35,973 nucleotides of DNA from Alistipes sp. GTDB lineage: Bacteria; Bacteroidota; Bacteroidia; Bacteroidales; Rikenellaceae. The translations under genes and the position numbers were made by a program. Each line of letters begins with the position of its first letter. Position 1 is the stretch's first letter. Of the stretch, positions 18,346 to 32,661 are shown piece by piece. The notes under the pieces are model-generated. The model did not search any database. It worked only from the letters and a program-made list of their open reading frames with translations, and had not been told where the DNA came from. Where the stretch lies: positions 1 to 35,973 of the forward strand of contig JAFUOK010000077.1 of NCBI GenBank assembly GCA_017481925.1. The letters run 5' to 3'.

Positions 18346-18365
18346 GAATTTTTGTTTTGCATAGC

Positions 18366-18415
18366 GTTACACCGTTACAGTAGTTACACCCCTTGTGACA
18401 CTGTAACGGTGTAAC
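18366..18415. repeat. 16-bp perfect inverted repeat
   Basis: Arms 18366-18381 and 18400-18415 are perfectly complementary around an 18-nt loop. The arms carry GTTACACC-type units, so the sequence resembles the neighbouring 9-bp array. No T-run follows, so a plain terminator is unlikely. It lies 20 nt after the stop of the sialidase-fold gene. Confidence 0.8.
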
Positions 18416-18428
18416 TGCGTAATGCAGA

Positions 18429-18518
18429 ATAGGCGGGATAAGTGTAATAAGTGTAATAGGTGCAATAGGCATAGGCTCGGTTATAACACTTATAACACTT
18501 ATAACACCTATTACACCT
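18429..18518. repeat. palindromic array of 9-bp units, copy B
   Basis: Ten 9-bp units in register: five on the left (ATAGGCGGG, ATAAGTGTA twice, ATAGGTGCA, ATAGGCATA), one centre unit (GGCTCGGTT) and four on the right (ATAACACTT twice, ATAACACCT, ATTACACCT). The centre GGCATAGGC is the reverse complement of the centre of copy A, so the two copies are the same element type in opposite orientation, 3 kb apart. Confidence 0.85.
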
Positions 18519-18530
18519 ATATTAACACAA

Positions 18531-18565
18531 AAATAGGTCACCCTACGGGGCGACCTATTTTCATT
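18531..18565. terminator. bidirectional terminator
   Basis: AAATAGGTC (18531-18539) pairs with GACCTATTT (18552-18560) with CC/GG inside the loop; T-rich on the right side and, read on the minus strand, also on the left. It separates the sialidase-fold gene (+) from the structured element and metallophosphoesterase (-). Confidence 0.75.
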
Positions 18566-18595
18566 ACTATCTACACAAAACCTATACTTACATAC

Positions 18596-18718
18596 GGTAG
18601 TTGTATAATACGTCTATTTTGGGGCTGGTCGCAGTCCAAGAAACCGCAGCATACTGAGGCGTATGTGAGGATTTCGAGGGCAAGCCAGACAACGAAAGAG
18701 GCGTATTAGGCGGCTACC
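18596..18718. repeat. stop-codon-linked structured element, copy 1
   Basis: A 123-nt element sharing its core with copies at 24059 and 32541. Plus-strand helices: GGTAGTTG/CGGCTACC outside (two G.T pairs), then a TA/GG internal loop, TAATACG/CGTATTA (18606-18612 with 18702-18708), CT-TTT/AAA-AG, GAAACC/GGATTTC with one bulge, and an apical CATAC/GTATG hairpin. The right edge is the last base of the metallophosphoesterase stop codon (CTA, 18718-18720). Invariant blocks are GGCTGGTCGC, CCGCAG, TGAGGA and AAGCCAGAC. Role unknown. Confidence 0.85.
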
Positions 18719-19896
18719 TACTGCACCTTTACAGTATGCTTGTGCAACAACTTACCCGTAGCATCCAGCACCTCCATTACGATCTCCTCCTTGGTGGCAC
18801 GCACCTTCACGCGATCGTTGTTTGAGTTTACCAGGATGGGGAACTCATTATCAGCATCACCCTTCTCCAGATAGCTGTAACGGTGGTTATGACCGCTGAG
18901 CATCACATCCACGCCCGACTCATTCAGCAGGGGCAGCAACAGACGCTTCAACTCATTATTACCATACCAGCCCGTACCCTTGGCAAAGGGGATATGTAGC
19001 AGAGCAATCTTCACAGGTGCCGAGCGGAACTCCTCGCTCTGTATAGCCTCCTTGAGCCACGCCGCCATAGCCTCGCGGTAGGCGTCATAGGCCGCCGTGC
19101 CACCGTACTCTATATCGCTGTCGGGCTTATCCTCGCCACTATCCAACACCACGAATGCCACAGGGCCCTCGCGGAACATAAAGTAAGGAGTATTGGTTGG
19201 CGATGGGAAAAGGTTAAGATACTCGCTAAAGCCGGGGCCACGCGTCTCGTGATTACCACGCACATATACCAACGGAAAGTCCGTGGCAAAGGTCTCCGTA
19301 GCGCGTGTCATAAAACCCTTCTCAATATCCTCGGTCGAACCCATAAAGCTCACCATATCGCCATTGAAGACCACGAAGTCGGGCTTCTCGCTGCGTATAT
19401 CTTTGGTCAGGGCCAGCATCATAGAGTCGCGGCCGTGGATATCGTTAATCATCGTGAATGTGCAATCCTCCTTCTTAAAGTCCATCGTGCGGATAGCATA
19501 CGGCGCACGCGAATAGACATCGCTGGCGCTGATATAACCGCTCGGCACGGGGTTATGGCCACTATCATCCACGCCCTGCTGATAGATGCGGTAGCGGTAT
19601 GTAGTGCCAGGCTTGAGGCCCGTAATACGCACGTGATGCACATCGGATACCACGTGACGACCCATAAAGTCCTCGTCGTAGCGGGGACGCTCCTCGGCAT
19701 AGAACGATGTACCATCGTCGGGTGCAATCTCCACCCAACCCATACAACGATCCGTAGAGGTCCACACCACGGTCATCTCCGTGTCGGTCACACCAACCAC
19801 CCAAGGGCCACACTTGGTCTTCACACGTGGAGGATCAGCCGCAAATACGGCCGCCACAGCCACAAGGGCCACAAAAGTCAAAAACAGTCTCTTCAT
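18718..19896 (-). CDS. secreted metallophosphoesterase with N-terminal Fn3-like domain
   Basis: A 392-residue protein resembling purple-acid-phosphatase-type metallophosphoesterases. A signal peptide (ends VFAAD) precedes a beta-sandwich domain of about 100 residues with the Fn3-like VRITGLKPGTTYRYRIY. The catalytic domain shows the metal ligands in order: DIHGR (about 145), NGDMV, RGNHETRG, LLHIPFAKG and GHNHRY. All five motif blocks are intact, so it should be an active phosphatase or phosphodiesterase in the periplasm or on the surface; the substrate is unknown. It is the last gene after an S41 protease and a 58-aa membrane peptide (17-nt gap to the latter). Its stop codon forms the edge of structured element copy 1. 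Confidence 0.88.
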   Translation of the reverse strand: MKRLFLTFVALVAVAAVFAADPPRVKTKCGPWVVGVTDTEMTVVWTSTDRCMGWVEIAPDDGTSFYAEERPRYDEDFMGRHVVSDVHHVRITGLKPGTTYRYRIYQQGVDDSGHNPVPSGYISASDVYSRAPYAIRTMDFKKEDCTFTMINDIHGRDSMMLALTKDIRSEKPDFVVFNGDMVSFMGSTEDIEKGFMTRATETFATDFPLVYVRGNHETRGPGFSEYLNLFPSPTNTPYFMFREGPVAFVVLDSGEDKPDSDIEYGGTAAYDAYREAMAAWLKEAIQSEEFRSAPVKIALLHIPFAKGTGWYGNNELKRLLLPLLNESGVDVMLSGHNHRYSYLEKGDADNEFPILVNSNNDRVKVRATKEEIVMEVLDATGKLLHKHTVKVQ

Positions 19897-19913
19897 AATT
19901 ATAGTTGTTTACG

Positions 19914-20090
19914 TTATTCTACCACAGGCTCTGCGCTCTCAGCCGCACTCTCCACAACCGTCTCCGCGCTCTCGGCCGAGAACAGGTCGTCGGGCAGCAT
20001 TGACTGATATGTACCCGCACCCAGCAAGGCAAAGACCATAACGGCCACCACGGCAAGCGAGAGGATAATACCTATAATCTTCTTTATCAT
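19914..20090 (-). CDS. 58-residue membrane peptide between protease and phosphoesterase genes
   Basis: An unrecognised small gene. It reads MIKKIIGIILSLAVVA and continues hydrophobic to about residue 27, then GTYQSMLPDD and a strongly acidic tail with three AES/SAE-type repeats. One transmembrane helix with a basic inside end and an acidic, probably periplasmic, tail is clear. It starts 2 nt after the S41 protease stop and ends 17 nt before the phosphoesterase start, so it is almost certainly co-translated with the protease. The tight fit in a 196-nt slot, start and stop in phase, and protein-like composition support coding. It could be a protease partner, anchor or substrate; that is inference. 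It is short enough to be missed by default gene callers. Confidence 0.72.
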   Translation of the reverse strand: MIKKIIGIILSLAVVAVMVFALLGAGTYQSMLPDDLFSAESAETVVESAAESAEPVVE

Positions 20091-20092
20091 AT

Positions 20093-21796
20093 CTACTTCT
20101 GAATTTTAATCACCATCTCGGGCAACTCACGGCTAATCATCGGCTCACCCTCCTCATGTTCGGGCATAGGCATCTGCTGTAAGATCTCCACCGAGCGAAG
20201 CAACACCTCGTCAATGGGATAGATGTTGTAGTAGAAGCCATCGTCCTCGAGGGCCGTATTGCGACCTATGTATGCACGCAGCTGCGCCTCCATAATCTTG
20301 CGCGAGCGGGCTATATCGCTCCTGACGGGTTTCACGCCCTGACGTGCAGCATACTGCACAAAGTCCTCGAAGAGTGTCTTATCGCCATCCAGCAACGCCT
20401 GCAACTCCTCCATCGTACGCACTGAATTGATAGCCTCACGGTGACGGTCGGCATACTCCAGCGTATAGCGGTAGAGGATATTGCGACCCGTAACCTCGAT
20501 GTAGTAGCGTGTCATATCCGTAGTATCCATCGGCACAAAGACATCGGGCATAATACCGCCACCGCCATATACCACCTTACCCTTCGGAGTGGTGAACTTC
20601 AGAGAGTCGGCAAAGTGGATGCTGTCGGCCGAGAAGAATTCGTTGTTGTTGTAGCGGCGCACAAGGTCCATATCATACTCCTCGTCATTGCCGTTGGTAT
20701 AGGGCTTCTGTATAGAGCGACCCGTGGGTGTGAAGTAACGTGCAATAGTCAGGCGCAGGGCCGAGCCATCGGGATAGGGAATCTGACTCTGCACCAGGCC
20801 CTTGCCGAACGAACGGCGTCCCACAATCGTACCACGGTCGTTATCCTGAACCGCTCCCGCCAGAATCTCCGATGACGAAGCACTACCCTCGTCAATCAGA
20901 ACCACCAATGCCAAATCAGTCGAAGTGCCACTGCCGTCGCTGTACTCGCGTGTCTGCTTACGCTCGCGATCCTCGGTATAGACAATGAGTTTACCGGCGG
21001 GCAGGAACTCGTTGGCAATCATAATAGCCTGATCGAGGAAACCGCCCGAGTTATCACGCAAATCGAATATCAGGCGCTTCATACCCTCCGCTCTGAGCTC
21101 CGCCAGGGCTGCCAACAGCTCAGTGTAGGATGTACGGGCAAACTGCGAGAGGCGGATAAAGCCAATATCGTCGGTTAGCATAAACGATGATTCGATGCTC
21201 TTGATAGGTATGGCATCACGCACCACCTGTACATCGACCAGATCGTCGATACCCTGACGCTTAAGCGAAAGTTTGACCTCCGAGCCACGCTTACCACGCA
21301 GACGCTTGACAATTTCGTTCTGCGGCATACCCACACCAGCGACCAACGTATCGTTAATCTCGATGATGCGGTCGCCAGCTACAACGCCCGCCTTGGCACT
21401 CGGGCCATTGGCGATAACGCTCAGCACGACGATAGTGTCGGAGGTAGTATTGAACGATATGCCCACGCCATCGAACTCGCCCTCAAGGGGTTCGTTTAAT
21501 TGCTGCATCTCACGCGCAGGGATATAGACCGAGTGGGGGTCGAGCTTCTCCATCATCATCGGGATGACCATCTCGGCCAAAGAGTCCATAGAGATAGAAT
21601 CGACAAAGCGATGCTCGATGAGCATACTTGTCTGCATAATCTTGTTGGTCATATTCATACCACTGCGGCTGACAATCGACCGCAGCTGTGTCTCGGCACG
21701 ATTGCGCCCCACAAACTGACCCAGCAGAATACCCAGCACCACTCCTACGGCAAGCAGCAGCGGAAATATAATAGCGTGTTTAGAATTCTTATACAT
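20093..21796 (-). CDS. S41-family carboxyl-terminal processing protease (CtpA/Prc type)
   Basis: A 567-residue protease, started at MYKNSKHAII (21796) so that the N terminus gives a membrane anchor (about residues 8-30). The longer frame start would add 22 residues unlike a signal. A PDZ domain follows at about 90-170 (EGEFDGVGISF, GPSAKAGVVAGDRIIEIND). The S41 core has LIFDLRDNSGG, the nucleophile Ser in GSASSSEILAGAVQDNDRG and the general-base Lys in RSFGKGLVQ. A 180-residue helical C-terminal extension is typical of Bacteroidota members. It would cut periplasmic or lipoprotein tails. It lies 87 nt after the DUF3078-like gene and is followed without gap by a 58-aa membrane peptide. Confidence 0.93.
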   Translation of the reverse strand: MYKNSKHAIIFPLLLAVGVVLGILLGQFVGRNRAETQLRSIVSRSGMNMTNKIMQTSMLIEHRFVDSISMDSLAEMVIPMMMEKLDPHSVYIPAREMQQLNEPLEGEFDGVGISFNTTSDTIVVLSVIANGPSAKAGVVAGDRIIEINDTLVAGVGMPQNEIVKRLRGKRGSEVKLSLKRQGIDDLVDVQVVRDAIPIKSIESSFMLTDDIGFIRLSQFARTSYTELLAALAELRAEGMKRLIFDLRDNSGGFLDQAIMIANEFLPAGKLIVYTEDRERKQTREYSDGSGTSTDLALVVLIDEGSASSSEILAGAVQDNDRGTIVGRRSFGKGLVQSQIPYPDGSALRLTIARYFTPTGRSIQKPYTNGNDEEYDMDLVRRYNNNEFFSADSIHFADSLKFTTPKGKVVYGGGGIMPDVFVPMDTTDMTRYYIEVTGRNILYRYTLEYADRHREAINSVRTMEELQALLDGDKTLFEDFVQYAARQGVKPVRSDIARSRKIMEAQLRAYIGRNTALEDDGFYYNIYPIDEVLLRSVEILQQMPMPEHEEGEPMISRELPEMVIKIQK

Positions 21797-21883
21797 CAAA
21801 TATTCATTAAAAAACCTAAGAATCGTAGCAAGCGGCGTACCATTTGCGTGCCGACGCACCACAACCCTACGGAGAGAGGGAGA

Positions 21884-23056
21884 CTACTTATTCTTGAACG
21901 TGTAGGTCAAGCCCAACGATATGAACGACTTGATCATCACCTGATCGCTCAACGCCTTATCGTAGTAGAGGTCCACCATAATCTGTGTCTGGAAATATGA
22001 CGATGCCTTGATCGTGATCGTGTTACGCCAATCAACTGTAGGATGCAACATCTCGTGACGAGGTACTGCCGCAGGCTCCAGACCCTCAGGACTGCCATCG
22101 GCTACCCACTTGTCGTGAGCCTCGAGGTAATCCTCGTAGTCGCGAATCTTCGAGAGTGAGCTCACATTGGTGATCCAACCATAGTAGCAGTAGAGGTTAC
22201 CGTTATAGCCGAGCCAGTTGTTCTTGCCCCACGTGCGTGCAAACTCAAACTTCACTGACGAACCACCCGTGAAGAAGAGGTGCTTGTCGATGTCGATACC
22301 GAACCAGCTCGTGTTACCACGACCACGGAAGTTTTCCTCGACCTGCGAGTTCTTGGCTATGATAGCATTACCAGAGAGGGGGAAGAACGAAATCTTGATA
22401 GGGAACTTCTTGCTCGGGCTGGCAAAGTCCATACCCACAGAGAAGTCCAGATAACCCGGAGCCATAAAGCCCGACTTCAAGTGCTCATCCTCCTGCTCGG
22501 TAGCACTCTTGTAAGAGTTTGAGAACTGGCTGCGGAACTTGGCCAGGGCGGTGTATGACCAGCGGTCGTTCACGGCCAACTTGGGCTGTATCTGCGCCCA
22601 GAACTCGTCGATATTCTTGAACCATATACCCTTCGAGTCATCCTCCTCGGTCTTGTAGTTCTGACGGCTGTAACCGTAGCGGGCATTGACCTGCGTGTTG
22701 TTCGAGAAACGTTTGTTGGTGTAGGTGTGCTTCAGGCCGAACGTACCCAGAATAGACATTGTATTGCTACCACCTTTCGACGATGATAGCCACGCATCGT
22801 TATACGAAGTCATCGAGCCCTGCAACGAGAGCGACACCTCCACATAGTTGCGCTCCTTGCGCAGACGCTGACGCTCCATCTTGGCACGTGCTTCGCTACT
22901 GAAGTCGGTGGCGATATTCATATCCTGCAGAGGGTTCTGCAGCTCCACGTTACCCGTAGATGTGGTCTTGGTCTCATCCTCAACGGTAAACTGTGCATAC
23001 GCATCGCTTACGGACAACGCAGCAAGGAGTGTCAATATAGTAAAAAGTCTCTTCAT
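21884..23056 (-). CDS. DUF3078-like outer-membrane protein
   Basis: A 390-residue secreted protein with a signal peptide ending SDAYA-QF. After a short coil (ARAKMERQRLRKER) the sequence is a series of amphipathic strands with many aromatic residues: WLSSSKGGSNTMSILGTF, TNKRFSNNTQVNARYGYS, DEFWAQIQPKLAVNDRW, and a C-terminal LGLTYTFKNK. This is the pattern of the DUF3078 barrel-like family of Bacteroidota, whose function is not established. The last strand ends in Tyr-Thr-Phe followed by three residues, a slightly unusual barrel terminus. A promoter box TAACTTTG (23095-23102) lies 39 nt upstream, close to the divergent nfo promoter. It may head the operon that continues to the S41 protease, since no terminator is visible in the 87-nt gap. 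Confidence 0.75.
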   Translation of the reverse strand: MKRLFTILTLLAALSVSDAYAQFTVEDETKTTSTGNVELQNPLQDMNIATDFSSEARAKMERQRLRKERNYVEVSLSLQGSMTSYNDAWLSSSKGGSNTMSILGTFGLKHTYTNKRFSNNTQVNARYGYSRQNYKTEEDDSKGIWFKNIDEFWAQIQPKLAVNDRWSYTALAKFRSQFSNSYKSATEQEDEHLKSGFMAPGYLDFSVGMDFASPSKKFPIKISFFPLSGNAIIAKNSQVEENFRGRGNTSWFGIDIDKHLFFTGGSSVKFEFARTWGKNNWLGYNGNLYCYYGWITNVSSLSKIRDYEDYLEAHDKWVADGSPEGLEPAAVPRHEMLHPTVDWRNTITIKASSYFQTQIMVDLYYDKALSDQVMIKSFISLGLTYTFKNK

Positions 23057-23094
23057 AAGGCTGTTTTTTTGATTTTACTTTTGAAATAACAATA

Positions 23095-23102
23095 CAAAGT
23101 TA
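23095..23102 (-). promoter_or_regulatory. TAnnTTTG box for the DUF3078-like gene
   Basis: Minus-strand TAACTTTG. It lies 20 nt from the divergent nfo box, so the two promoters share an AT-rich spacer and may compete. No clear -33 TTTG. Confidence 0.6.
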
Positions 23103-23122
23103 CAACTTTTAATAAAAATAGT

Positions 23123-23130
23123 TACATTTG
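23123..23130 (+). promoter_or_regulatory. TAnnTTTG box for nfo
   Basis: TACATTTG 31 nt before the ATG at 23162, giving a leader of about 25 nt. No clear -33 TTTG. Confidence 0.6.
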
Positions 23131-23161
23131 TAGAGGACTAATTAATCAACAATTTCGCATT

Positions 23162-24007
23162 ATGAAGTATTTTGGTGCACACGTGAGCGCATCGGGCGGC
23201 GTAGAGAACGCTCCGCGTAATGCTGCAGAGATAGGAGCAACGGCTTTTGCCCTCTTTACCAAGAACCAACGCCAATGGGCCGCGCCCCCACTCTCTGAGG
23301 CGCAGATCGAGGCTTTCCGCATGGCGTGCGAGGAGTGCGGCTATGCGCCACAGCAGATTCTGCCACACGATAGTTATCTAATAAACCTCGGCCATCCCGA
23401 AGCAGAGGGACTGGAGAAGTCACGCGCATCATTCCTGCACGAGATGGAGCGTTGCCAGCGTCTGGGTCTTGACCGCCTGAACTTCCACCCGGGCAGCCAC
23501 TTAAAGAAGATCTCCGAGGAGCAGAGCCTCGCCCTGGTGGCCGAATCGATCAACATCGCACTCGATCGGACCGAGGGCGTGACGGCCGTCATAGAAAACA
23601 CCGCAGGTCAAGGTTCGAATCTTGGCTATGCCTTCTGGCACCTGGCCTATATCATTGATCGTGTGGAGGATAAGTCACGTGTAGGCGTATGCCTTGACAC
23701 CTGCCACTCGTTCGCTGCAGGCTACGACCTATCGACCGAGGAGGGTTGCGAGCGTGTATTTGCCGAGTTTGAGCGTGAGGTGGGATTTAAGTATCTACGC
23801 GGTATGCACCTCAATGATGCTATGAAGCCGCTGGGTAGCCGTGTCGATCGCCACTCGCCGATGGGTGAGGGTTATCTGGGCATCGCACCATTCCGCTACA
23901 TTGCCCGCGATGCACGCTTTGACAATATCCCGCTCATACTCGAGACGCCCGACGAGAGCCGCTGGGCCGAGGAGATTGCCCTGCTGAAGAGTTTTTCGCA
24001 GGAGTAA
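23162..24007 (+). CDS. nfo: endonuclease IV (AP endonuclease)
   Basis: A 281-residue TIM-barrel DNA repair enzyme that cleaves the backbone 5' of abasic sites. All zinc-site blocks are present in order: GAHVSASGG at the start, [54 protein letters not shown] and LILETPDE. Length is normal and nothing is missing. It is a single plus-strand gene with its own promoter, divergent from the DUF3078-like gene, and it ends at a strong terminator shared with the opposing operon. Confidence 0.97.
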
Positions 24008-24023
24008 CAAAAGAAAATAACAG

Positions 24024-24055
24024 AAAAAAGCCTATCCGTGTGGATAGGCTTTTTT
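24024..24055. terminator. bidirectional terminator after nfo
   Basis: A 14-bp stem with A/T runs built in: AAAAAAGCCTATCC (24024-24037), GTGT loop, GGATAGGCTTTTTT (24042-24055). It serves nfo on the plus strand and the opposing operon on the minus strand. Confidence 0.92.
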
Positions 24056-24058
24056 CTT

Positions 24059-24179
24059 AAAATTGTATAACAAGAACTATTTTGAGGCTGGTCGCCGCCC
24101 GAGAAACCGCAGTTTGCTCGGCGCAAATGAGGATTTCGAGGGCAAGCCAGACGCCAAAAGAGTCTTGTTAGACGATTTT
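24059..24179. repeat. stop-codon-linked structured element, copy 2
   Basis: A 121-nt element. Helices: AAAATTG/CGATTTT outside (one T.G), TA/GA loop, TAACAAG/CTTGTTA (24068-24074 with 24164-24170), CTATTTT/AAAAGAG, then GCCC/GGGC, tandem GA/GA, GAAA-CC/GG-TTTC with one bulge, and a TTTGC/GCAAA apical hairpin that replaces CATAC/GTATG of the other copies. The right edge overlaps the stop codon TAA (24178-24180) of the stomatin-like gene by two bases. It lies 3 nt from the nfo terminator. Confidence 0.87.
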
Positions 24180-24576
24180 ATTCGCCTTTGGCTTCCAGGA
24201 TAGGCAGTCCCGCTTCGGTAGGAATGTAGATAACCTTATTTGCCGCAGAGTTCTGCTGTCGCACCCAAAGGTATTGGATGTAGGTCGGCGTCAGCGAGCC
24301 GTTCTCAATCTTGATAGCCTCGGCAGCACCCTGTGCTCGTACCACCTCGGCCTGTGCATTCAGTTTCTCGGCCTCGAGGTTAGCTTTTGCCTCCTCAATC
24401 TTGATTTGGCGATTCTGCTCTGCCTGCGCCAACTCCGCACGACCCTTCATCTCCTGCTGCCACACCTTGTATCGTGGCACACCAAAGAGGAAGAACGCAA
24501 TGATGATAAAACATACCAATGCAATGGACAAAACTCCACCTGCCGTGATTACGGCACCCTGATTTCTCTCGCTCAT
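24178..24576 (-). CDS. short stomatin/prohibitin-like membrane protein lacking the SPFH domain
   Basis: A 132-residue protein. One transmembrane helix at about residues 12-33 is followed by a charged Ala/Glu/Lys/Gln-rich helix (about 40-90) of coiled-coil type ending in AQGAAEAIKIENG. Then comes LTPTYIQYLWVRQQ with a short C-terminal tail. This is the layout of the C-terminal third of SPFH proteins (prohibitin, HflC, stomatin), where the AEA-rich helix and a following Leu/Pro/Tyr motif drive ring assembly. The SPFH domain itself is absent. It may be a compact scaffold or an adaptor for a full-length SPFH protein; function unknown. It lies 30 nt after a class-III aminotransferase and is the last gene of the cvpA operon, ended by structured element copy 2. 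Confidence 0.7.
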   Translation of the reverse strand: MSERNQGAVITAGGVLSIALVCFIIIAFFLFGVPRYKVWQQEMKGRAELAQAEQNRQIKIEEAKANLEAEKLNAQAEVVRAQGAAEAIKIENGSLTPTYIQYLWVRQQNSAANKVIYIPTEAGLPILEAKGE

Positions 24577-24606
24577 AGCTTTAAGTTTTAGTTGGTTATA
24601 CCTAAT

Positions 24607-25806
24607 TTACAATCTATCCAAACAACTTCTTATGATCCTCACGCTGTCGCGAATCTCCTCGTCCGAGATAATGAGCGGCGGCGAAATGCGGAAAGCCGTA
24701 TCGCAGTAGAGGAACCAGTCGCTCAGGATTCCCTCCTCGATAAAGAGATCCATAATCTTGTAGAGTTTCTCGCTCTGCCCCAACTCCACCGCCAGCAGCA
24801 GACCGCTACGGCGAATCTCCTTAACAGCCGAGTGATCCTTTAAGAGCTCCTCGTAGAGTGCGCCCTTGCGCTCCACATCCTCAACCACTTTATTGTCAAT
24901 CAAGTAGCGCATGGCCGCAAGACCTGCCGCACAGCATACGGGATGACCGCCAAAGGTTGTGATATGCCCCAGCACGGGGTCAAACGTCAGCGTGGACATA
25001 ATCTTCTGACTCGAGATAAACGCTCCCAGAGGCATACCGCCACCAAAAGCCTTTGCAAGGCAGACTATATCGGGTGTCACGCCATATCGCTGCATAGCAA
25101 ACATCTCGCCCGAGCGACCCATACCCATCTGTATCTCATCGAAGATAAGCAGTGCACCCACCTCGTCACAACGCTTGCGCAGAGCCTGCAAATAGCCCTC
25201 TTCGGGGGGTCTTACGCCTGCCTCACCCTGCACGGGCTCACAAAGCACGCACGCCGTACGAGTGGTAATCTGCTTAAGATCCTCCTCGCAGTTAAAGCGA
25301 ATGGCCTTCGTGTCGGGCAACAGTGGTCGAAACGCATTCTTCCACTCCTCCCCCTCGGGTGCGCCCATCATACTCATAGCGCCGTGTGTAGAGCCGTGGT
25401 AGGCACGCCGCATAGAGATCATTTCCGTGCGGGCGGTATAACGCTTGGCAAGTTTCAGAGCACCCTCCACGGCCTCGGCTCCCGAATTAAGGAAATAGAC
25501 CGTATCCAACGGCTGGGGCAGGCACTCGGCCAACAGACGGGCATACTCCACCTGCGGACGCTCAACCATCTCGCCATAGACCATAATATGCATATAATCA
25601 GCCACCTGACGCTGCACAGCCTCCACAACGGCACGATTGCCGTGGCCGACATTATTGACCGACACGCCCGAAATCAGATCGTAGTAGGGTTTGCCCTCGG
25701 GAGTATAGAAAAAGACTCCCTCGGCTCGTGCCACCTCGATTAGTTGCGGCGAGGGCGAAGTCTGCGCCACGTGACGAAGAAATTGTTTGCGAAGAATATC
25801 GTTCAT
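24607..25806 (-). CDS. class-III PLP aminotransferase (acetylornithine/4-aminobutyrate type)
   Basis: A 399-residue fold-type I class-III aminotransferase. I use the ATG at 25806; the longer frame starts with a GTG that abuts the trmH stop. Signatures: DLISGVSVNNVGHGNRAV, FLNSGAEAVEGALKLA, LIFDEIQMGMGRSGEMFA, the Schiff-base lysine in CLAKAFGGGMPLGAF, and the phosphate-contacting THITTFGGHPV-like segment (GHITTFGGHP). The best matches in my memory are acetylornithine, ornithine and GABA transaminases; the exact amino donor is not determined. It follows trmH with a 5-nt gap in a housekeeping operon. Confidence 0.9.
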   Translation of the reverse strand: MNDILRKQFLRHVAQTSPSPQLIEVARAEGVFFYTPEGKPYYDLISGVSVNNVGHGNRAVVEAVQRQVADYMHIMVYGEMVERPQVEYARLLAECLPQPLDTVYFLNSGAEAVEGALKLAKRYTARTEMISMRRAYHGSTHGAMSMMGAPEGEEWKNAFRPLLPDTKAIRFNCEEDLKQITTRTACVLCEPVQGEAGVRPPEEGYLQALRKRCDEVGALLIFDEIQMGMGRSGEMFAMQRYGVTPDIVCLAKAFGGGMPLGAFISSQKIMSTLTFDPVLGHITTFGGHPVCCAAGLAAMRYLIDNKVVEDVERKGALYEELLKDHSAVKEIRRSGLLLAVELGQSEKLYKIMDLFIEEGILSDWFLYCDTAFRISPPLIISDEEIRDSVRIIRSCLDRL

Positions 25807-25811
25807 AATCA

Positions 25812-26525
25812 CTACTTTTCAGGAAATTGCCTCTCTAAAATTCTCTCGGCATCACGCACCGACGACATCACCCAGCGGAACAGCATCTCGCGCTCGTCCG
25901 CCTCCTTCAGATGCCAATCTATCGAGGGCGAGAGACGCATACGCTGCGAGAGCATATAAATCAAAATAGCCGCCGAAGCCGATACATTCAGGCTCTCGAC
26001 CATGCCACACATCGGGATACGCAGATACTCATCCGCCGCCTCGATAATCTCGTCCGTGACACCTGCATGCTCCGTACCAAAGACCAGGCAGAAGGGTCCT
26101 CGCTCCACGTCGAAGGTCTCGGGTGTGCAGCTCTCACGGTGAGGAGTAGTGGCAACCAAACGGTAGCCCGCACCCTTCAATGCCGCAATAGCATCGGCCG
26201 TAGAGTCGTGACGTGTAATATCGACCCACTTATCCGTGCCACGCACGATGTTTACGTTGGGATTAAACTTACAACGGGTCTCAACTGTATGCAACTCCTG
26301 CACGCCAAAAGCCTCGCAGTGACGCACCAGCGCCGATGCATTCTGCGGATGGAAGGTATTTTCGGTAAGGATAGTCATATAACGAGTACGCGAAGCAAGC
26401 GTGCGACGCAGCACCTCCTTGCGCTCCTCGGTAAGAAAACTCTCCATATAGGCCGTGCGCTCATCCAGCCATTCGGCCGCGCGGTCGGCCGCGAGCGATT
26501 TCAATCTATTTGCGATACTTGTCAT
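25812..26525 (-). CDS. trmH: tRNA/rRNA 2'-O-methyltransferase, TrmH (SpoU) family
   Basis: A 237-residue SPOUT methyltransferase that methylates a ribose 2'-OH in RNA with S-adenosylmethionine, most likely tRNA G18. An N-terminal helical region precedes the knot domain with NTFHPQNASALVRHCEAFGV (motif 1, catalytic-Arg region), FGTEHAGVTDE (motif 2) and IPMCGMVESLNVSASAAI (motif 3, SAM-binding knot). The motifs fit TrmH better than RlmB. Its 5' end overlaps the rsgA frame by 20 nt (26506-26525), so translation is coupled to the ribosome-assembly GTPase before it. Confidence 0.92.
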   Translation of the reverse strand: MTSIANRLKSLAADRAAEWLDERTAYMESFLTEERKEVLRRTLASRTRYMTILTENTFHPQNASALVRHCEAFGVQELHTVETRCKFNPNVNIVRGTDKWVDITRHDSTADAIAALKGAGYRLVATTPHRESCTPETFDVERGPFCLVFGTEHAGVTDEIIEAADEYLRIPMCGMVESLNVSASAAILIYMLSQRMRLSPSIDWHLKEADEREMLFRWVMSSVRDAERILERQFPEK

Positions 26526-27429
26526 CTTCGTCCATAATTTTCAGGTAACTCTCATATCGGGGGTAGGCTATCTCGCCACGCTCGACAGCCTCCACTACGG
26601 CACAATGCGGCTCGTGGGTATGAGAACAGTTATAGAATCGGCAATCGGGCAGGTAGCGCATCATCTCGGGAAAGTAGTGTGCCAGCTCGGCATCCTCAAT
26701 ATCAATCAATCCGAAGCCCTTAATGCCAGGAGTATCAATTATATATCCTCCCTCCGAGAGGGGGTACATCGTCGAGAAGGTTGTAGTATGCTTGCCCTTA
26801 TGGTGGCTCTGCGAAATCTCGCCCGTACGAATATCCAGCCCCGGCTCCACGGCCGCCACAAGTGTCGATTTGCCTACGCCCGAATTTCCCGACAGCAGCG
26901 TAGTCTTGCCTCGCAGCAGTTCTCTCACCTCCTCTACGCCCTCGCCCTCGGTAGCCGACACCTCAACGATGCGGTAGCCGGCACGCTCATATATCGCGTG
27001 AAACTCCTCCACAGCCTCGGGTCGCGTGCGAGCCAAGTCAATTTTTGCAAGGAGAATCGTCACGGGGACTTTATATGCCTCGCAGGTGACCAGAAAACGG
27101 TCGATAAACTCTGTTGCCGTCTCGGGCGAAAAGAGCGTTGCGACCAACAACGCCTGATCCACATTGGCGGCTATGATATGCGACTCCTTCGAGAGATTGG
27201 AGGCTCGGCGGATGATATAGTTGCGACGCTGTTCAATTGAGGAGATGACATAGCCCCCCTGTTCATCCATCTCCACACGCACCTCATCGCCCACGACCAC
27301 GGGATTGGTCGAGCGCACGCCCTTTAGGCGTAACTTTCCTCGGATGCGGCACTGGTAACGTTCTTCATCGTGCAACACCTCGTACCAACTGCCCGTCGAG
27401 CGTACTACGATGCCTGTAAAATGGTCCAT
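26506..27429 (-). CDS. rsgA: small-ribosomal-subunit assembly GTPase RsgA
   Basis: A 307-residue circularly permuted GTPase (YjeQ). An N-terminal OB domain (GIVVRSTGSWYEVLHDEERYQ, split over strands) is followed by the G4 motif LLAKIDLA, the P-loop GNSGVGKSTLV and G3 DTPGIKGFG in the permuted order typical of the family. The C-terminal zinc finger has Cys and His ligands in CRFYNCSHTHEPHCAV. It helps mature the 30S subunit. It starts 3 nt after the cvpA stop and its end overlaps trmH. Confidence 0.96.
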   Translation of the reverse strand: MDHFTGIVVRSTGSWYEVLHDEERYQCRIRGKLRLKGVRSTNPVVVGDEVRVEMDEQGGYVISSIEQRRNYIIRRASNLSKESHIIAANVDQALLVATLFSPETATEFIDRFLVTCEAYKVPVTILLAKIDLARTRPEAVEEFHAIYERAGYRIVEVSATEGEGVEEVRELLRGKTTLLSGNSGVGKSTLVAAVEPGLDIRTGEISQSHHKGKHTTTFSTMYPLSEGGYIIDTPGIKGFGLIDIEDAELAHYFPEMMRYLPDCRFYNCSHTHEPHCAVVEAVERGEIAYPRYESYLKIMDEDDKYRK

Positions 27430-27432
27430 AGT

Positions 27433-27921
27433 CTAATCCAGCAATTTGTCAGCAATATCCTCAAAATATGGTGTCAGCTTATCCGTGATACCCTTCACCT
27501 GCGCAAACCAGCGCGACTCTTCAACCTTCTGCTTTGAGGCCCACTCATAATTCTTATTGACAGATGCAAACCACGAGAAGAGAACACTCACGATAAGCAT
27601 CACCTTCGCAACCGAGAAGGCTATACCCAGCAGCACATCGGCAATACCCAGCCCCGCAAAGCGGAACACGGCACGAAGCAGATACGCAGCAATGGAGATA
27701 AGCAACAGAGCCGCGATGAAGATTACTATAAATCCTGCCACACCCTTGACGCCCACCTCTATGCCGAGCATCGTCTCCAGTTCGGCACCATACTGCGTAG
27801 CGAAGTAGAGCGCCGCCACAACGGCCACAAGCGAGAGCATCTGCAACAGGAATCCGCGACGCCAGCCGTTGAATACGGCCCACGCCAGCGCCAGATAGAC
27901 TATAATATCAAATATATTCAT
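27433..27921 (-). CDS. CvpA-family inner-membrane protein
   Basis: A 162-residue protein with four predicted transmembrane helices: FDIIVYLALAWAVFNG, FLLQMLSLVAVVAALYF, VAGFIVIFIAALLLISIAAYLL, and VLLGIAFSVAKVMLIVSVLFSWF. The last 40 residues are soluble and helical. This is the CvpA/colicin V production layout, including the NGWRRGF motif after helix 1. Named for a need in colicin V export in E. coli; its general role is in envelope homeostasis and is not well defined. First gene of the operon with rsgA and trmH. An imperfect promoter box (TAACTTCG, 27976-27983) lies about 55 nt upstream on the minus strand. Confidence 0.88.
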   Translation of the reverse strand: MNIFDIIVYLALAWAVFNGWRRGFLLQMLSLVAVVAALYFATQYGAELETMLGIEVGVKGVAGFIVIFIAALLLISIAAYLLRAVFRFAGLGIADVLLGIAFSVAKVMLIVSVLFSWFASVNKNYEWASKQKVEESRWFAQVKGITDKLTPYFEDIADKLLD

Positions 27922-28005
27922 ACAAACTTTGGGTTATTTTGTCCATTTTGTTCGTCACTGAGGACGAAATTTCGCACGAAGTTAGCATATTTTTTTGAGA
28001 ATTGC

Positions 28006-28013
28006 TATATTTG
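28006..28013 (+). promoter_or_regulatory. TAnnTTTG promoter box of the GH2 transcript
   Basis: TATATTTG. Expected start near 28020, only about five bases before a short ORF. A -33 TTTG at normal spacing is not present. Confidence 0.6.
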
Positions 28014-28024
28014 CATTTAGTAAA

Positions 28025-28090
28025 ATGGATTATCACGGGCTTACGGCCCTCCTCAAAGGAGCATTTCAGGGCGCTATCGGCGACTGCTGA
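28025..28090 (+). CDS. possible 21-residue leader ORF upstream of GH2
   Basis: ATG to TGA encoding MDYHGLTALLKGAFQGAIGDC, beginning within a few bases of the predicted transcript start. Within it are two small hairpins (GGGC/GCCC at 28037-28049 and TCCT/AGGA). Its stop codon lies inside GCTGAA (28086-28091), which is complementary to TTCAGC (28123-28128) just before the GH2 start. That allows a model where translation of the leader controls access to the GH2 start codon. Coding is unproven: no ribosome site is visible and length alone would allow chance. Confidence 0.35.
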   Translation: MDYHGLTALLKGAFQGAIGDC

Positions 28091-28130
28091 AGGCTCACGA
28101 TCCATACCGAAACAGATAAATTTTCAGCCT

Positions 28131-30128
28131 ATGAAACGTATTTTAATTGCCCTCATATCAGTTTTGATTTGTGCCTCCGCCCAGGCCCGCGAAGTATTCT
28201 CGCTCAACGACGACTGGCAATTCTTCTACAAACTGGACACAAGCAGCGACAATGCCCGCCGCATATCACTCCCCCACACCTGGAACCTCGACGCCTTGGC
28301 AGGTCAGGGATCATATCACCAGACCACGGCCAACTACTCGCGCAACATCTTCGTACCCGAAGAGTGGCAAGGCAAGCGTCTGTTCATCAAGTTCCACGGC
28401 GTGCAGAGCGTAGCCGACCTCTTCGTCAATGGCCACCACGTAGGTGAGCACCGCGGAGGATGGACCGCCTTCACGTTTGAGATTACGAAACACCTTGAAT
28501 ACGGCAAAGATAATTCGCTCGTTGTGGTGGTGAGCAACGCCTACCAGAACGATGTGTTGCCCACATCATCGGAGGAGAATCTCTATGGCGGAATATATCG
28601 CGATGTAGAGCTGATCGTAACCGAGGCTACGACAATATCGCCCCTGCACTACGGTTCGGACGGTATCCTGGTGCATCAGAACAACATCACCGACACAAGT
28701 GTCGAGGCTACCGTAGCCGTTTATGTCACTACCCTCTCGGAGAAGGCGTGCGATCTAGCACTCACGGTGCGTGCCCCGACGGGCGACGTGGTGCTCTCGC
28801 GCTACGTGAAGGGGCGCATTGAGGCCGGCAAGCCCATCAACATACCCATAACGCTGGAGGAGCCTCTGCTATGGTACCCCAACGAGCCCAACCTCTACAC
28901 CATAACCGTGGGCATAGGTACCCACGAAGAGGATGAGGTGAGTGTAACCACAGGCTTCCGCCGTATTGAGGCCTCAGCCGAGGGGCTGAAAATCAACGGC
29001 GAGCGTATAGCCGTGCGAGGCGTAGCCCTGCACCACGACCGTGCCGCCATAGGCAGTGCCTTACGCACACGTCACTATGAGGAGGACCTGGAGCAGATAC
29101 GCGACATCGGCGCCAACGCCATCCGTTCGGTGACGGCACCGCACGCTCAGTATCTCTACGACCGATGCGACGAGACGGGTATGCTGGCGTGGATTGATAC
29201 CCCGTTCTCGCGTGCACCCTATCTGAGCGACGTATTCTACTATGCGACAGATAAGTTCCGCGATAATGGCTTGCAGCAGCTGCGAGAGATTATCACCCAA
29301 AACTATAACCACCCCTCGGTGGTGATGTGGGGTATATACTCTCTGATTTGGATGCGTGGCGACAACGTTATAGACTACGTGCGTACGCTCAACTCTACGG
29401 CCAAGTCGATGGATGCGACTCGTCCCACGGTGGCGTGCAGCAACCAGGATGGCGACATCAACTTTATCACCGACCTGATTGTATGGCAGCAGTCGCTGGG
29501 CTGGGAGCGTGGCGTGATTGACGATGTTAAGGTGTGGAGCGACAAGCTACACGCAGAGTGGAGTCACCTCTGCTCGGCCGTAGCATACGGCGAGGGCGGC
29601 TCTATTGATCAGCAGACCAAGGAGCCCCTGCAATCAGGACAGATTGATATGCGCTGGCTGCCCGAGCAGTGGCACACCGCCCTGCACGAGGGCTATGCCA
29701 AGATACTGGAGACGGACGAAAAGTTCTGGGGTGTATGGATCAATAATATGTATGAGTTCGGATCGGTACGCCATAACGATGGCATATCTCGTACGGGACT
29801 GATTACCTTCGACCATAAGGACAAAAAAGATGCCTACTACCTCTACCGTGCGCTGTGGAACAAGCAGAGCCCCACGCTGCACATCACAGAGAAGCGTCGC
29901 AACATACGTCAGGACTCGATGCAGAGCGTAAAGGTATATTCATCACTCGAGGAGGCTCCCACGATGACGGTAAACAAGGAGCCTGTGGAGCTTAAGGAGG
30001 TTGCACCCTGCATCTACGAGTCGGAGGCGGTGCCTATGACACGCCGCACGCAGATAGTCGTGAAGGCTGGCGAGCAGCAGGACAGCGCAACAATCACAAT
30101 TGGCAACGCATTAGCACAGAGTCGATAG
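28131..30128 (+). CDS. secreted GH2-family protein lacking both catalytic glutamates
   Basis: A 665-residue protein started at MKRILIALIS (28131), giving a signal peptide ending ASAQA. Domains in order: GH2 sugar-binding jelly roll (about 25-165, with VPEEWQGKRLFIKFHGV and NLYGGIYRDVEL), Ig-like domain (about 170-275), TIM barrel (about 280-590). The fold marks are intact (NGERIAVRGVALHHD, NYNHPSVVMWGI, EKFWGVWINNMYEFGS). The acid/base site that should read N-E after MWGIY is S404-L405, and the nucleophile site that should read SEYG is VAYG with A485. Both catalytic Glu are replaced, so ordinary beta-galactosidase or glucuronidase activity should be lost. It may bind sugar or sense ligand. 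Its last 35 nt overlap the wbqC gene end to end. Confidence 0.9.
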   Translation: MKRILIALISVLICASAQAREVFSLNDDWQFFYKLDTSSDNARRISLPHTWNLDALAGQGSYHQTTANYSRNIFVPEEWQGKRLFIKFHGVQSVADLFVNGHHVGEHRGGWTAFTFEITKHLEYGKDNSLVVVVSNAYQNDVLPTSSEENLYGGIYRDVELIVTEATTISPLHYGSDGILVHQNNITDTSVEATVAVYVTTLSEKACDLALTVRAPTGDVVLSRYVKGRIEAGKPINIPITLEEPLLWYPNEPNLYTITVGIGTHEEDEVSVTTGFRRIEASAEGLKINGERIAVRGVALHHDRAAIGSALRTRHYEEDLEQIRDIGANAIRSVTAPHAQYLYDRCDETGMLAWIDTPFSRAPYLSDVFYYATDKFRDNGLQQLREIITQNYNHPSVVMWGIYSLIWMRGDNVIDYVRTLNSTAKSMDATRPTVACSNQDGDINFITDLIVWQQSLGWERGVIDDVKVWSDKLHAEWSHLCSAVAYGEGGSIDQQTKEPLQSGQIDMRWLPEQWHTALHEGYAKILETDEKFWGVWINNMYEFGSVRHNDGISRTGLITFDHKDKKDAYYLYRALWNKQSPTLHITEKRRNIRQDSMQSVKVYSSLEEAPTMTVNKEPVELKEVAPCIYESEAVPMTRRTQIVVKAGEQQDSATITIGNALAQSR

Positions 30129-30699
30129 CATCGACTCCCTCACACAAGAGAAGATCCAACACCGAGAGATTCTCGGCAAAAGGCATACGGTCTGAAAAGA
30201 CCTGAAAATAGGGCTGGGCAACAAATGTCGAGCCCTCTTTTGTTTTGGGACGCAGATCGAGATCCTCCTCCGTGGCCACAACATACTGCTCCGAGGTGCG
30301 CACCTCGCACTTCGCCCCCAGCAGGCGCAACAACGTGGAGGTGTACTCCATATTATAATCGACCAGATAACGCCACTCTCGACGGTAGAAGGGTTCTATA
30401 TCGGCAGCAAAATGGTCGAAGTAAGGCGATGATTTATAGGCCGAAAGGATAGATACCCAATGCTGATGTTGCCAACGCTTCGAGTAGTCGATCCTGACAT
30501 CTCGCATCCTTTGACGCGGACGGTTGGCATTCTCGACGTGCACGGTGAGCGCCATAACGCCATTGGCGGATAGTATCGAGGCGCGATTGCGCTCCGAACG
30601 CTTAACATAGTTCTCGCCCAGGTCGATGACGCACTCCTCGCGCAAAAGACGTGCCACATACTCCACCGAGGGCATATATGCTGAAGGAAGTATTACCAT
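30094..30699 (-). CDS. WbqC-family protein
   Basis: A 201-residue protein of the WbqC-like family. Visible marks are the N-terminal LPSAYMPSVEYVARLL, EECVIDLGENYVKRSERNRASIL with ANGVMALTVHV, and YFDHFAADIEPFY. Members sit in O-antigen or surface-glycan loci in some bacteria and are widespread in Bacteroidota; the biochemical activity is not established to my knowledge. It starts 1 nt after prmA. Its end overlaps the opposing GH2 gene by 35 nt with no terminator between, so both mRNAs have complementary 3' ends. Confidence 0.85.
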   Translation of the reverse strand: MVILPSAYMPSVEYVARLLREECVIDLGENYVKRSERNRASILSANGVMALTVHVENANRPRQRMRDVRIDYSKRWQHQHWVSILSAYKSSPYFDHFAADIEPFYRREWRYLVDYNMEYTSTLLRLLGAKCEVRTSEQYVVATEEDLDLRPKTKEGSTFVAQPYFQVFSDRMPFAENLSVLDLLLCEGVDAIDSVLMRCQL

Positions 30700-30700
30700 A

Positions 30701-31528
30701 TTATTGTTTTTTACACTCTACAACCATCCACCCCTCGCGCTCACTTACGCGCTCAACCACAAAGCCCTGCTCTGCAGCCGCAGACTCTATCACGGGCACA
30801 TCCTCCACTAAAAATCCACTCATAAGCAGACGTCCGCCCACATCGAGCGCCGCAGCAAAAGCAGGCATCATACCCACAAGGATATTGCGGTTGATGTTGG
30901 CCAGCACGAAATCGAACTTTTCGCCCGCAACCACATCCATCGAGCCACAACGCACATCTATCTCTACGCCACTCAGCGCCATACTGTCACGGCAACTGTC
31001 GCACGCCCAATCGTCAATATCTACGCCCACCATACTCTGTGCGCCACACTTCAGCGCAACGATTGCCAGAACGCCCGTTCCGCAACCCATATCCAAGCCT
31101 CGCAGGCCCTCAACACCCATCTGCGCTATGGTCTGCGACATCAGAGCCGTAGTAGCATGGTGCCCCGTGCCGAAAGACATTCGCGGAGCAATCACTACAT
31201 CTATAACCCCAGCCTCGGGTGCCTGGTGGTGTGCGGCACGGATAAGAATAGACTTTTCACCCTCAACACGCACGGGATCAAAGGCGCTCTCCCACTCCTG
31301 GTTCCAGTTCTGCTCGGCGACATCCACGATGGTGTACTCCACACCCTGCTCTGCAAGCAACGCCTCAACATCGGCAGAGCAGGCCGTGTAGTCATTGGAG
31401 AGGATATAGGCTTTGAGCGAGCCTTCATCCTGCAGGAAGGAGTCGAAGGGATAGTCCGACAATAGTGCCGTCAGAATCTCGGCCTGCTGATCGTCGATAG
31501 TGGAAATATTGAGTTCGGAGTATTTCAT
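30701..31528 (-). CDS. prmA: ribosomal protein L11 methyltransferase
   Basis: A 275-residue SAM-dependent enzyme that methylates ribosomal protein L11 on amino groups. I start at MKYSELNISTI (31528); the longer frame would extend past the promoter. An N-terminal substrate-recognition domain ends with the NWNQEWESAFDP motif. The catalytic domain has MSFGTGHHATT, the SAM loop LDMGCGTGVLAIVAL, GVDIDDWA and the NINRNIL motif. All are intact. Divergent from xerD; a TAACTTTG box lies at 31573-31580 on the minus strand. Followed directly by wbqC. Confidence 0.95.
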   Translation of the reverse strand: MKYSELNISTIDDQQAEILTALLSDYPFDSFLQDEGSLKAYILSNDYTACSADVEALLAEQGVEYTIVDVAEQNWNQEWESAFDPVRVEGEKSILIRAAHHQAPEAGVIDVVIAPRMSFGTGHHATTALMSQTIAQMGVEGLRGLDMGCGTGVLAIVALKCGAQSMVGVDIDDWACDSCRDSMALSGVEIDVRCGSMDVVAGEKFDFVLANINRNILVGMMPAFAAALDVGGRLLMSGFLVEDVPVIESAAAEQGFVVERVSEREGWMVVECKKQ

Positions 31529-31545
31529 ATTATGTAAAATTTTCG

Positions 31546-31553
31546 TAATTTTG
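31546..31553 (+). promoter_or_regulatory. TAnnTTTG box for xerD
   Basis: TAATTTTG, 36 nt before the ATG at 31589. It excludes the earlier in-frame ATG at 31556 as start, because transcription would begin near 31560. Confidence 0.65.
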
Positions 31554-31572
31554 CGTTGCACAGAACACCCTA

Positions 31573-31580
31573 CAAAGTTA
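31573..31580 (-). promoter_or_regulatory. TAnnTTTG box for prmA
   Basis: Minus-strand TAACTTTG with TTTG 22 nt upstream (31603-31606). The -33 half lies within the first codons of xerD, so the two divergent promoters overlap. Confidence 0.65.
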
Positions 31581-31588
31581 GAAAGAAT

Positions 31589-32488
31589 ATGGCAGATAAC
31601 ACCAAAAAATGGATGGAAATTTCGCGCTCGTACCGCATACACCTGCGTCTGGAGAAACATCTCGCGGAGAATACGGTCGATTCATATATGAGCGATCTGG
31701 CGAAGTTCGCACACTTCATTCTGCGTATGTACGATATACCACCCACCAAGGTGGAGCCCGAGATGATCAGCAAATATATGGTTCGTCTCTACGACCTGGG
31801 GCGCGAGAAGAGTTCGCAGGCGCGAGCACTGAGTAGCATAAAGAGTTTCTATAACTACCTTTTGCTTGAGGGCAAGATGGAGGCCTCGCCCGCCGAGTTG
31901 ATCGAAGCGCCCAAAGCCTCACGACCGCTGCCCGACACCCTGACGGTGGAGGAGATCGACCGTCTCATCGCCTCGATAGATGACTCCACGACAAAGGGGC
32001 TGCGTGACCGTGCCATCCTGGAGGTGTTGTATTCGTGTGGGCTGCGTGTGAGCGAGTTGTGCGACCTGCGTGTGGGCGATCTCTTCTTTGGCGAGGGGCA
32101 TATCCGCGTGGTGGGCAAGGGTGACAAGCAGCGTCTGGTACCTATCTCGGGCGTAGCACGCGAGCGCATAAATCTATACTTCGATAGAAGGAAGGAGCTA
32201 CGACGCAAGGAGGATACCCTCTTCCTGAATAATCGCGGAGGAAAACTTACGCGTGTGATGATCTTCACCATCATCAAGCAGGCGTGCCTGCGTGCAGGCA
32301 TAACAAAGAAGATTAGCCCCCACACCTTCCGTCACTCCTTTGCAACGCATCTGCTGGAGGGTGGCGCAAGCATCCGTCAGGTACAGGAGTTGCTCGGTCA
32401 CGAAAGTATCCTCACCACCGAGATATACACCCACCTCGACACACAACATCTGCGTCAAACGCTGGAGGAGCATTTGGCTTTTGAGTAA
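31589..32488 (+). CDS. xerD: tyrosine recombinase XerC/XerD type
   Basis: A 299-residue site-specific recombinase that resolves chromosome dimers at dif. An N-terminal SAM-like core-binding domain is at residues 8-95. The catalytic domain has all active-site residues: Arg in GLRVSELCDL, Lys in VGKGDKQRLVP, HTFRHSFATHLLEGGAS (His and Arg), LLGHESI and the nucleophile Tyr in EIYTH. Length equals chromosomal XerC/D; it lacks the insert characteristic of integron integrases. A single plus-strand gene ending at a strong terminator, next to structured element copy 3. Confidence 0.95.
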   Translation: MADNTKKWMEISRSYRIHLRLEKHLAENTVDSYMSDLAKFAHFILRMYDIPPTKVEPEMISKYMVRLYDLGREKSSQARALSSIKSFYNYLLLEGKMEASPAELIEAPKASRPLPDTLTVEEIDRLIASIDDSTTKGLRDRAILEVLYSCGLRVSELCDLRVGDLFFGEGHIRVVGKGDKQRLVPISGVARERINLYFDRRKELRRKEDTLFLNNRGGKLTRVMIFTIIKQACLRAGITKKISPHTFRHSFATHLLEGGASIRQVQELLGHESILTTEIYTHLDTQHLRQTLEEHLAFE

Positions 32489-32499
32489 ATAAAGAAAAA

Positions 32500-32531
32500 G
32501 GGGTTGTTCGACTCAATAGTCGAACAACCCC
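32500..32531. terminator. bidirectional terminator after xerD
   Basis: A 14-bp perfect stem (32500-32513 with 32518-32531), CAAT loop, AAAGAAAAA before and TCTCTTTT after. Works for xerD (+) and for the opposing oxidoreductase gene (-). Confidence 0.9.
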
Positions 32532-32540
32532 ATCTCTTTT

Positions 32541-32661
32541 AAAATTGTATAACAAGAGCTATTTTGAGGCTGGTCGCAGGCTGAAAGTCCGCAGCATACT
32601 GAACGTATGTGAGGAACTTGAAGCCAAGCCAGACGCCAAAAGAGCCTTGTTAGGCAATTTT
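32541..32661. repeat. stop-codon-linked structured element, copy 3
   Basis: A 121-nt element. Helices: AAAATTG/CAATTTT (32541-32547 with 32655-32661), TA/GG loop, TAACAAG/CTTGTTA (32550-32556 with 32646-32652), CTATTTT/AAAAGAG, GGCT/AGCC, tandem GA/GA, AAGTCC/GGAACTT with one bulged A, CATAC/GTATG hairpin. The right edge is the first base of the oxidoreductase stop codon (TTA on plus, 32661-32663). It begins 10 nt after the xerD terminator. Confidence 0.87.

Follow-up and report, generated by a model that had tools for sequence, protein, structure and literature searches.

A dispersed, structured hairpin repeat in Alistipes and its relatives in other phyla

Integron attC sites are strand-specific hairpins that follow stop codons and fold from their bottom strand. 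The element described here resembles them in being a strand-specific hairpin behind stop codons and differs in the boxes and the integrase, neither of which was found in the copies and genus genomes that we searched. ERIC, YPAL and RU are intergenic, MITE-like repeats of enterobacteria that measure approximately 100–170 bp and form long hairpins (PMC2229807, PMC2759123). They have their size, intergenic site, long hairpin and MITE-like nature in common with our element, whereas the available parts of these two accounts mention neither an orientation rule relative to stop codons nor relatives in other phyla, and the RU sequences shown there share no core with it, as judged by eye only. For E. 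coli, a survey of stem-loop repeats includes BoxC, Eco-1, ERIC and PU-BIME, none of which could be matched to the element from the survey table alone (PMC2267715). Rfam family sX9, a Xanthomonas sRNA, is one of the sRNA families annotated most often in bacteria (PMC9029176), and several sX9 genes are present in one Xanthomonas strain (PMC10924375); as far as the available parts of these papers go, the latter is what a repeat family would give. A literature search of open-licence papers returned no description of the family as a mobile repeat.

The DNA that we analysed (the window, 35,973 nt) belongs to an Alistipes sp. genome of 1.9 Mb that is 84% complete; other genomes and loci are denoted by G and L numbers, respectively. 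An earlier note, made from the sequence of the window, had claimed three copies of an element with covarying helices. All three are present, and a covariance model built from 28 copies of the same genome (R1) places them on the plus strand at 18595..18719 (113.8 bits), 24057..24181 (135.2 bits) and 32539..32663 (135.8 bits), each as a hairpin element of type A. The sequences contain the stem changes that had been listed for the paired regions, as well as the tandem GA/GA step in copies 2 and 3. The outer stem, which is GGTAGTTG/CGGCTACC in copy 1, does change on both sides, but its pairing had been drawn too perfectly, as the copy 2 arm reads CGATTTT and hence includes one G-U pair. Folding of the plus strands of copies 1, 2 and 3 yielded −57.6, −49.8 and −50.0 kcal/mol (z = −7.6, −6.3 and −6.9), and for each of them none of 200 shuffles was as stable. 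Folds of the minus strands are likewise favourable (z = −3.7, −6.3 and −5.9), though less stable than those of the plus strands.

All three copies abut the stop codon of a minus-strand ORF. The end of copy 1 meets the TAG of a metallophosphatase gene (PF00149, 18718..19896), while TAA stop codons lie within the last bases of copy 2, for a 132-aa ORF that has no Pfam match (24178..24576), and of copy 3, for an oxidoreductase gene (PF16490/PF01408, 32661..34055). Terminator-like hairpins, read from the sequence, occupy a position that we term P0 upstream of copy 1 (18532..18559) and just upstream of copies 2 (24030..24049, with A/T tracts) and 3 (32500..32531). The second of these comes after a plus-strand gene (23162–24007) and the third after a phage-integrase-family (XerD-like) gene (31556–32488). 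Copy 3 had no match to plasmids and phages. Non-coding runs of near-repeats, such as GTGTAATAAGTGTAATAGGTG and its inverse, were observed at 18360–18540 of the window and also in L025 and L136.

A DNA search with copy 3 returned 45 matches in its own genome at E-values up to 10. The covariance model search that the earlier note had proposed returned 64 matches in this genome, 57 of which are full length (about 124 nt) and score above 87 bits. The seven that were dropped comprise three core-only matches, two with internal deletions (48.5 and 35.6 bits), an opposite-strand duplicate and a match of 29.5 bits. For the quantification of covariation, 28 of 30 loci from the DNA search were aligned with MAFFT (alignment A2), leaving out two truncated loci. 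The fold of copy 3, with 45 pairs, provided the consensus structure; four of these pairs can form in only some of the copies (46–50% paired) and were omitted before counting.

Across the 28 copies, 34 of the remaining 41 pairs showed two-sided change, compared to a mean of 19.5 in shuffled alignments, and cells with two-sided change numbered 191 versus 56.3 in the shuffles, which ignore relatedness. Paired cells amounted to 93.3%, against 76.2% after shuffling and 35.5–45.6% when the partner was slid by one to three columns. Ten of the 11 best-scoring column pairs were pairs of the structure, as were 17 of all 36 listed. Within the inner hairpin, the pair of columns 57 and 75 is G-U in 27 of the 28 copies. 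Columns 52, 55 and 79 covary as well (C,C,G in 16 copies, G,G,C in 11 and C,U,G in one), and this joint change may reflect a base triple or a different way of pairing. By eye, the copies fall into two subfamilies that differ in the mid-stem.

G-U combinations outnumbered A-C combinations in the 28-copy alignment by 75 to 14, or by 48 to 14 without the fixed G-U pair. The excess was 128 to 9 in alignment A3, which like alignment A5 was fitted to the model and is biased towards it. Because G-U exceeds A-C, the plus strand is likely the functional, folding strand. Together, the covariation and the G-U excess make selection on a folded nucleic acid, as the earlier note had proposed, well supported; the rival account of the same pattern is template-switch correction.

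The position of the copies relative to genes is one-sided. In 40 of the 57 copies, a minus-strand gene has its stop codon no more than 5 nt from the right end, and in 46 no more than 30 nt, while the left end lies within 5 nt of a plus-strand stop codon in none and within 30 nt in a single copy. As a control, random non-coding positions in the same loci were drawn 11400 times, and 702 of these draws had such a stop codon between −6 and +8 nt. Among 36 copies from congeners, for which a looser ORF rule was used, 28 had a minus-strand stop codon within 30 nt of the right end and four had a plus-strand stop codon within 30 nt of the left end. Copies in two other Bacteroidales families share this geometry, with one lying 7 nt from the stop codon and the other overlapping it by 1 nt. 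The adjacency is weaker in further families of the phylum, from which 29 loci were examined (stop codon within 15 nt on the right in 13 and on the left in five). The one-orientation placement behind stop codons is therefore not universal.

Copies were found in 34 of 61 genomes, including the own one, and six of the positive genomes, with one to seven matches each, lie outside the genus. Copy number per genus genome ranged from zero, in nine of 37 genomes, to at least 58, with a maximum of 58 candidates scored in each genome. Several copies in each of G030 and G001 agree at all 121 nt yet have unrelated right flanks, and three copies in G027 are 96–98% identical. The element also occurs in tandem arrays. 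Some units in G030 include the upstream terminator-like hairpin P0; of 30 P0 sites in this genome, 19 precede the 5′ arm of the long hairpin, seven precede a short unit without this arm and four precede neither, and 13 of the 30 coincide with a covariance-model match.

Filled and empty sites could be compared directly at two gene junctions. Of ten argG-argC loci that we read, five are empty, four are filled and one, in G074, carries a dissimilar insert of 137 nt (L425, 2301–2437). The argG stop codon overlaps the argC start codon at empty sites (TAATG), and at filled sites the element is located directly behind the argG stop codon, with TAA on both flanks of the insert in the own genome. The murG-murC junction is filled in the own genome. 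Elsewhere, 14 murG-murC loci were read, 13 of them on both sides, and the two genes are closely spaced in 11, about 60 nt apart in one and separated by a gap of about 490 nt in one. Compared to relatives in which murG ends in TGG-TAA, the filled murG of the own genome is extended by a few codons and terminates at a new stop codon (L037, 1475–1500), and the insertion thus seems to lengthen the predicted MurG protein. The element is short, non-coding, inverted-repeat and dispersed, with both filled and empty sites, which are traits of MITEs. With its dispersed copies, the unrelated flanks of identical copies and these filled and empty sites, it behaves as mobile.

In a tree of 53 chosen copies, including 27 of the 57 from the own genome, the four argG copies form one clade (support 100/88). 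As they are monophyletic, a single insertion is likely. Among these four apparently orthologous copies, 12 of 41 pairs showed two-sided change in a model-fitted alignment, in which 95.7% of cells were paired; nine of the 12 pairs are located in the outer helix. The covariation across orthologues indicates that the stem is kept in an apparently non-moving copy. Selection at this site could explain its retention in place, and so could template-switch correction.

As copy number varies from none to dozens within one genus, comparing which genes its genomes possess or lack offers a way to look for the mover. Neither a Y1 (HUH) transposase nor an integron integrase above the cut-off was found in any of the 37 genus genomes; the former result speaks against a REP/REPIN-like element moved by a RAYT. 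Below the cut-off, the integron integrase model matched in nearly all genomes, as tyrosine recombinases in general do, and such recombinases are present in genus genomes and may include the mover. Reverse transcriptases were found in 13 of the 37 genomes, namely in eight of 28 with copies and five of nine without. They are present in the copy-rich G030 and G033 and were not found in the copy-rich G000, G001, G005, G016, G021, G027 and G035, which argues against a group II intron or another element moved by reverse transcriptase. DDE_Tnp_1 (IS4/IS5-type) was rejected as it is present in only three of the 37 genomes. None of these four families fits as the mover, with the reservation that the genus genomes are drafts, many of them incomplete, and that the absence of an enzyme from them is not proof. 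The identical and near-identical copies in G001 and G027 are thus puzzling, as none of the four families was found in these genomes, and so is a repeat with a rule for both site and orientation.

Target duplications were sought in 42 rows that scored 12 or more, the arms of which were extended with a drop-off. Direct repeats of 3 nt occurred in three of the 42 at the best offsets, where 0.7 were expected. Direct repeats of 2 nt occurred in 11 of the 42 at one offset, and every one was self-complementary at that position, which a paired stem would produce. None of the offsets in these 42 rows revealed a consistent target duplication of fixed length. An IS5-like 3-nt TNA duplication, attractive by eye in some enterobacterial copies, was likewise rejected because no offset gave a consistent signal. 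A remnant at L025 was considered as the end of a larger transposon, and none was seen in about 760 nt.

We found relatives of the element well beyond the genus. A second model, R2, had matches in 38 of 395 genomes of the phylum, counting the own one, and 33 of these belong to family f43, which the names of matching records suggest to be Chlorobiaceae. A core pattern with 21 fixed and six half-fixed bases was matched exactly in at least 120 stretches, where about 0.01 would be expected by chance (an estimate that assumes even base composition). The 80 matches listed include Chlorobium, Alistipes, Cryptobacteroides, Syntrophus, Desulfobacula, Deferribacteraceae and Betaproteobacteria, as well as Vampirovibrio, Manganitrophus, Rickettsia endosymbionts, Yersinia, Pectobacterium, Citrobacter and others; since many of the sources are metagenome assemblies, individual taxon assignments could be mistaken. 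Unpaired loop bases are in part kept across phyla.

The earlier note had also known of no named family with this shape. This holds for the window, in which an Rfam scan identified no family at threshold, but not for a betaproteobacterial relative (L272), which passes sX9 (RF02228) with 47.4 bits against a gathering threshold of 44. The match to sX9 extends over 76 nt, roughly half the hairpin, and runs along the complement of the folded strand. Matches below the threshold were found in Formivibrio (41.3 bits), Pectobacterium (34.2), Yersinia (33) and Chlorobium (30.5), and at four loci from other families of the phylum (24.6–33.6 bits). There was no sX9 match in the window, nor any at lax E-values up to 5 in five loci of the own genome and two of congeners.

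In E. coli, a Citrobacter copy used as query identified one to eight places in 5375 of 5426 genomes. A K-12 strain has a copy between glrK and qseG, 3 nt from the glrK stop codon and with the folded strand antisense. Other strains have copies behind glnA (glnA-glnL) and before pheS (pheM-pheS), where the folded strand has the same sense as the gene upstream. Of 40 listed matches to the glrK region, spread over the ranking, 39 had full coverage and one 12%, so the glrK copy looks fixed or nearly so; coverage of at least 80%, found in 5374 of 5426 genomes, does not bear on this, as an empty site would reach that level too. These intergenic repeats share the core of our element and have few copies per genome and outer arms of their own. 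They may be the same as the E. coli repeat RSA of about 152 bp.

The glnA copy, present in some strains, is situated in the glnA 3′UTR, the GlnZ region (L380, 1494–1609). The available part of a published study describes an O111-type glnA 3′UTR with a 98-nt insertion between AGGTTCAAA repeats, expressed as GlnZ RNA (PMC9731577). Since the AGGTTCAAA repeats lie 107 nt apart in L380, this insertion would fit the element. The shorter O157-type 3′UTR may then be a deletion between the AGGTTCAAA repeats rather than the ancestral form. One structured repeat family unites an Rfam sRNA, E. coli intergenic repeats and unnamed hairpins of Chlorobium and gut bacteria.

On balance, we consider it somewhat probable that the family is a non-autonomous mobile element consisting almost entirely of one long strand-specific hairpin, the folded plus strand of which is recognised by a mover. 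Moving machinery would recognise this strand, as single-stranded DNA or as an RNA copy, by its conserved internal loops and fixed G-U pair, and the outer stem would be free in sequence provided that pairing holds. Copies would insert, or persist, immediately behind a stop codon, the folded strand being antisense to the gene that ends there, and such an insertion leaves the reading frame ending at or near its former place. The distribution of the four enzyme families and the lack of a consistent target duplication argue against a mobile element of this kind, as do the two E. coli copies with a sense folded strand and the weaker adjacency in other families of the phylum. The stem retained in place in the four argG orthologues is also unfavourable, as a purely parasitic element need not keep it. 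The two-sided changes at this one site would instead suit an element useful to the host at the 3′ ends of genes, where once-mobile copies are kept as hairpins, often beside a terminator, that protect or end the transcript. The adjacency to stop codons, the terminator-like hairpins adjoining the three window copies and the expression of the insertion-bearing glnA 3′UTR as GlnZ RNA are consistent with such a role. We nevertheless hold it to be rather unlikely, as the G-U bias marks the plus strand, which is antisense to the abutting gene, so that in the transcript of the gene itself these pairs would be A-C mismatches; moreover, no copies were found in a quarter of the genus genomes (nine of 37) and half of the ten argG-argC loci read are empty.

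Quasi-palindrome correction, in which template switching during replication copies one arm onto the other, would produce two-sided changes without selection on the fold, in an element that would still be mobile. A long near-perfect palindrome lends itself to this process, the tandem copies attest to replication errors in the element, and the concentration of the argG changes in the outer helix points in the same direction. Correction should, however, erase mismatches, yet asymmetric internal loops and the near-invariant G-U pair persist; the joint variation of columns 52, 55 and 79 and the partial conservation of unpaired loop bases across phyla also speak against it, and we regard it as improbable. 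That the copies are attC-like recombination sites of integrons has been largely refuted, and we give it hardly any weight. The geometry is alike and some arm ends resemble GTTRRRY by eye, but RYYYAAC and GTTRRRY were found at the ends of none of 28 of the 57 own-genome copies and none of 21 Chlorobi-type copies (from the 29 loci L229–L257, alignment A4) on either strand. In addition, no integron integrase passed the cut-off in the 37 genus genomes, and the copies adjoin ordinary genes such as murG, murC, argG and argC. Beyond the mobile hairpin that we favour for the family itself, a broader proposal is possible, although doubtful: an ancient class of mobile nucleic acid found across phyla, with a folded single strand, a near-invariant core, an exchangeable outer stem, one-orientation placement behind stop codons and an enzyme that has gone unrecognised.

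Other hairpins accompany the element at several loci. A separate palindrome of about 110 nt lies near one copy (L008, 1743–1854), for which microRNA precursor models remained below threshold on both strands. Some copies contain a second, unrelated small hairpin insert (L132, about 1600–1745; L137, about 930–1000; L138, about 940–1004; also L166, L169, L184 and L188), and the motif TTGCTTCG..TCGGCAAA...TTTGCTCTC recurs in part of these inserts.
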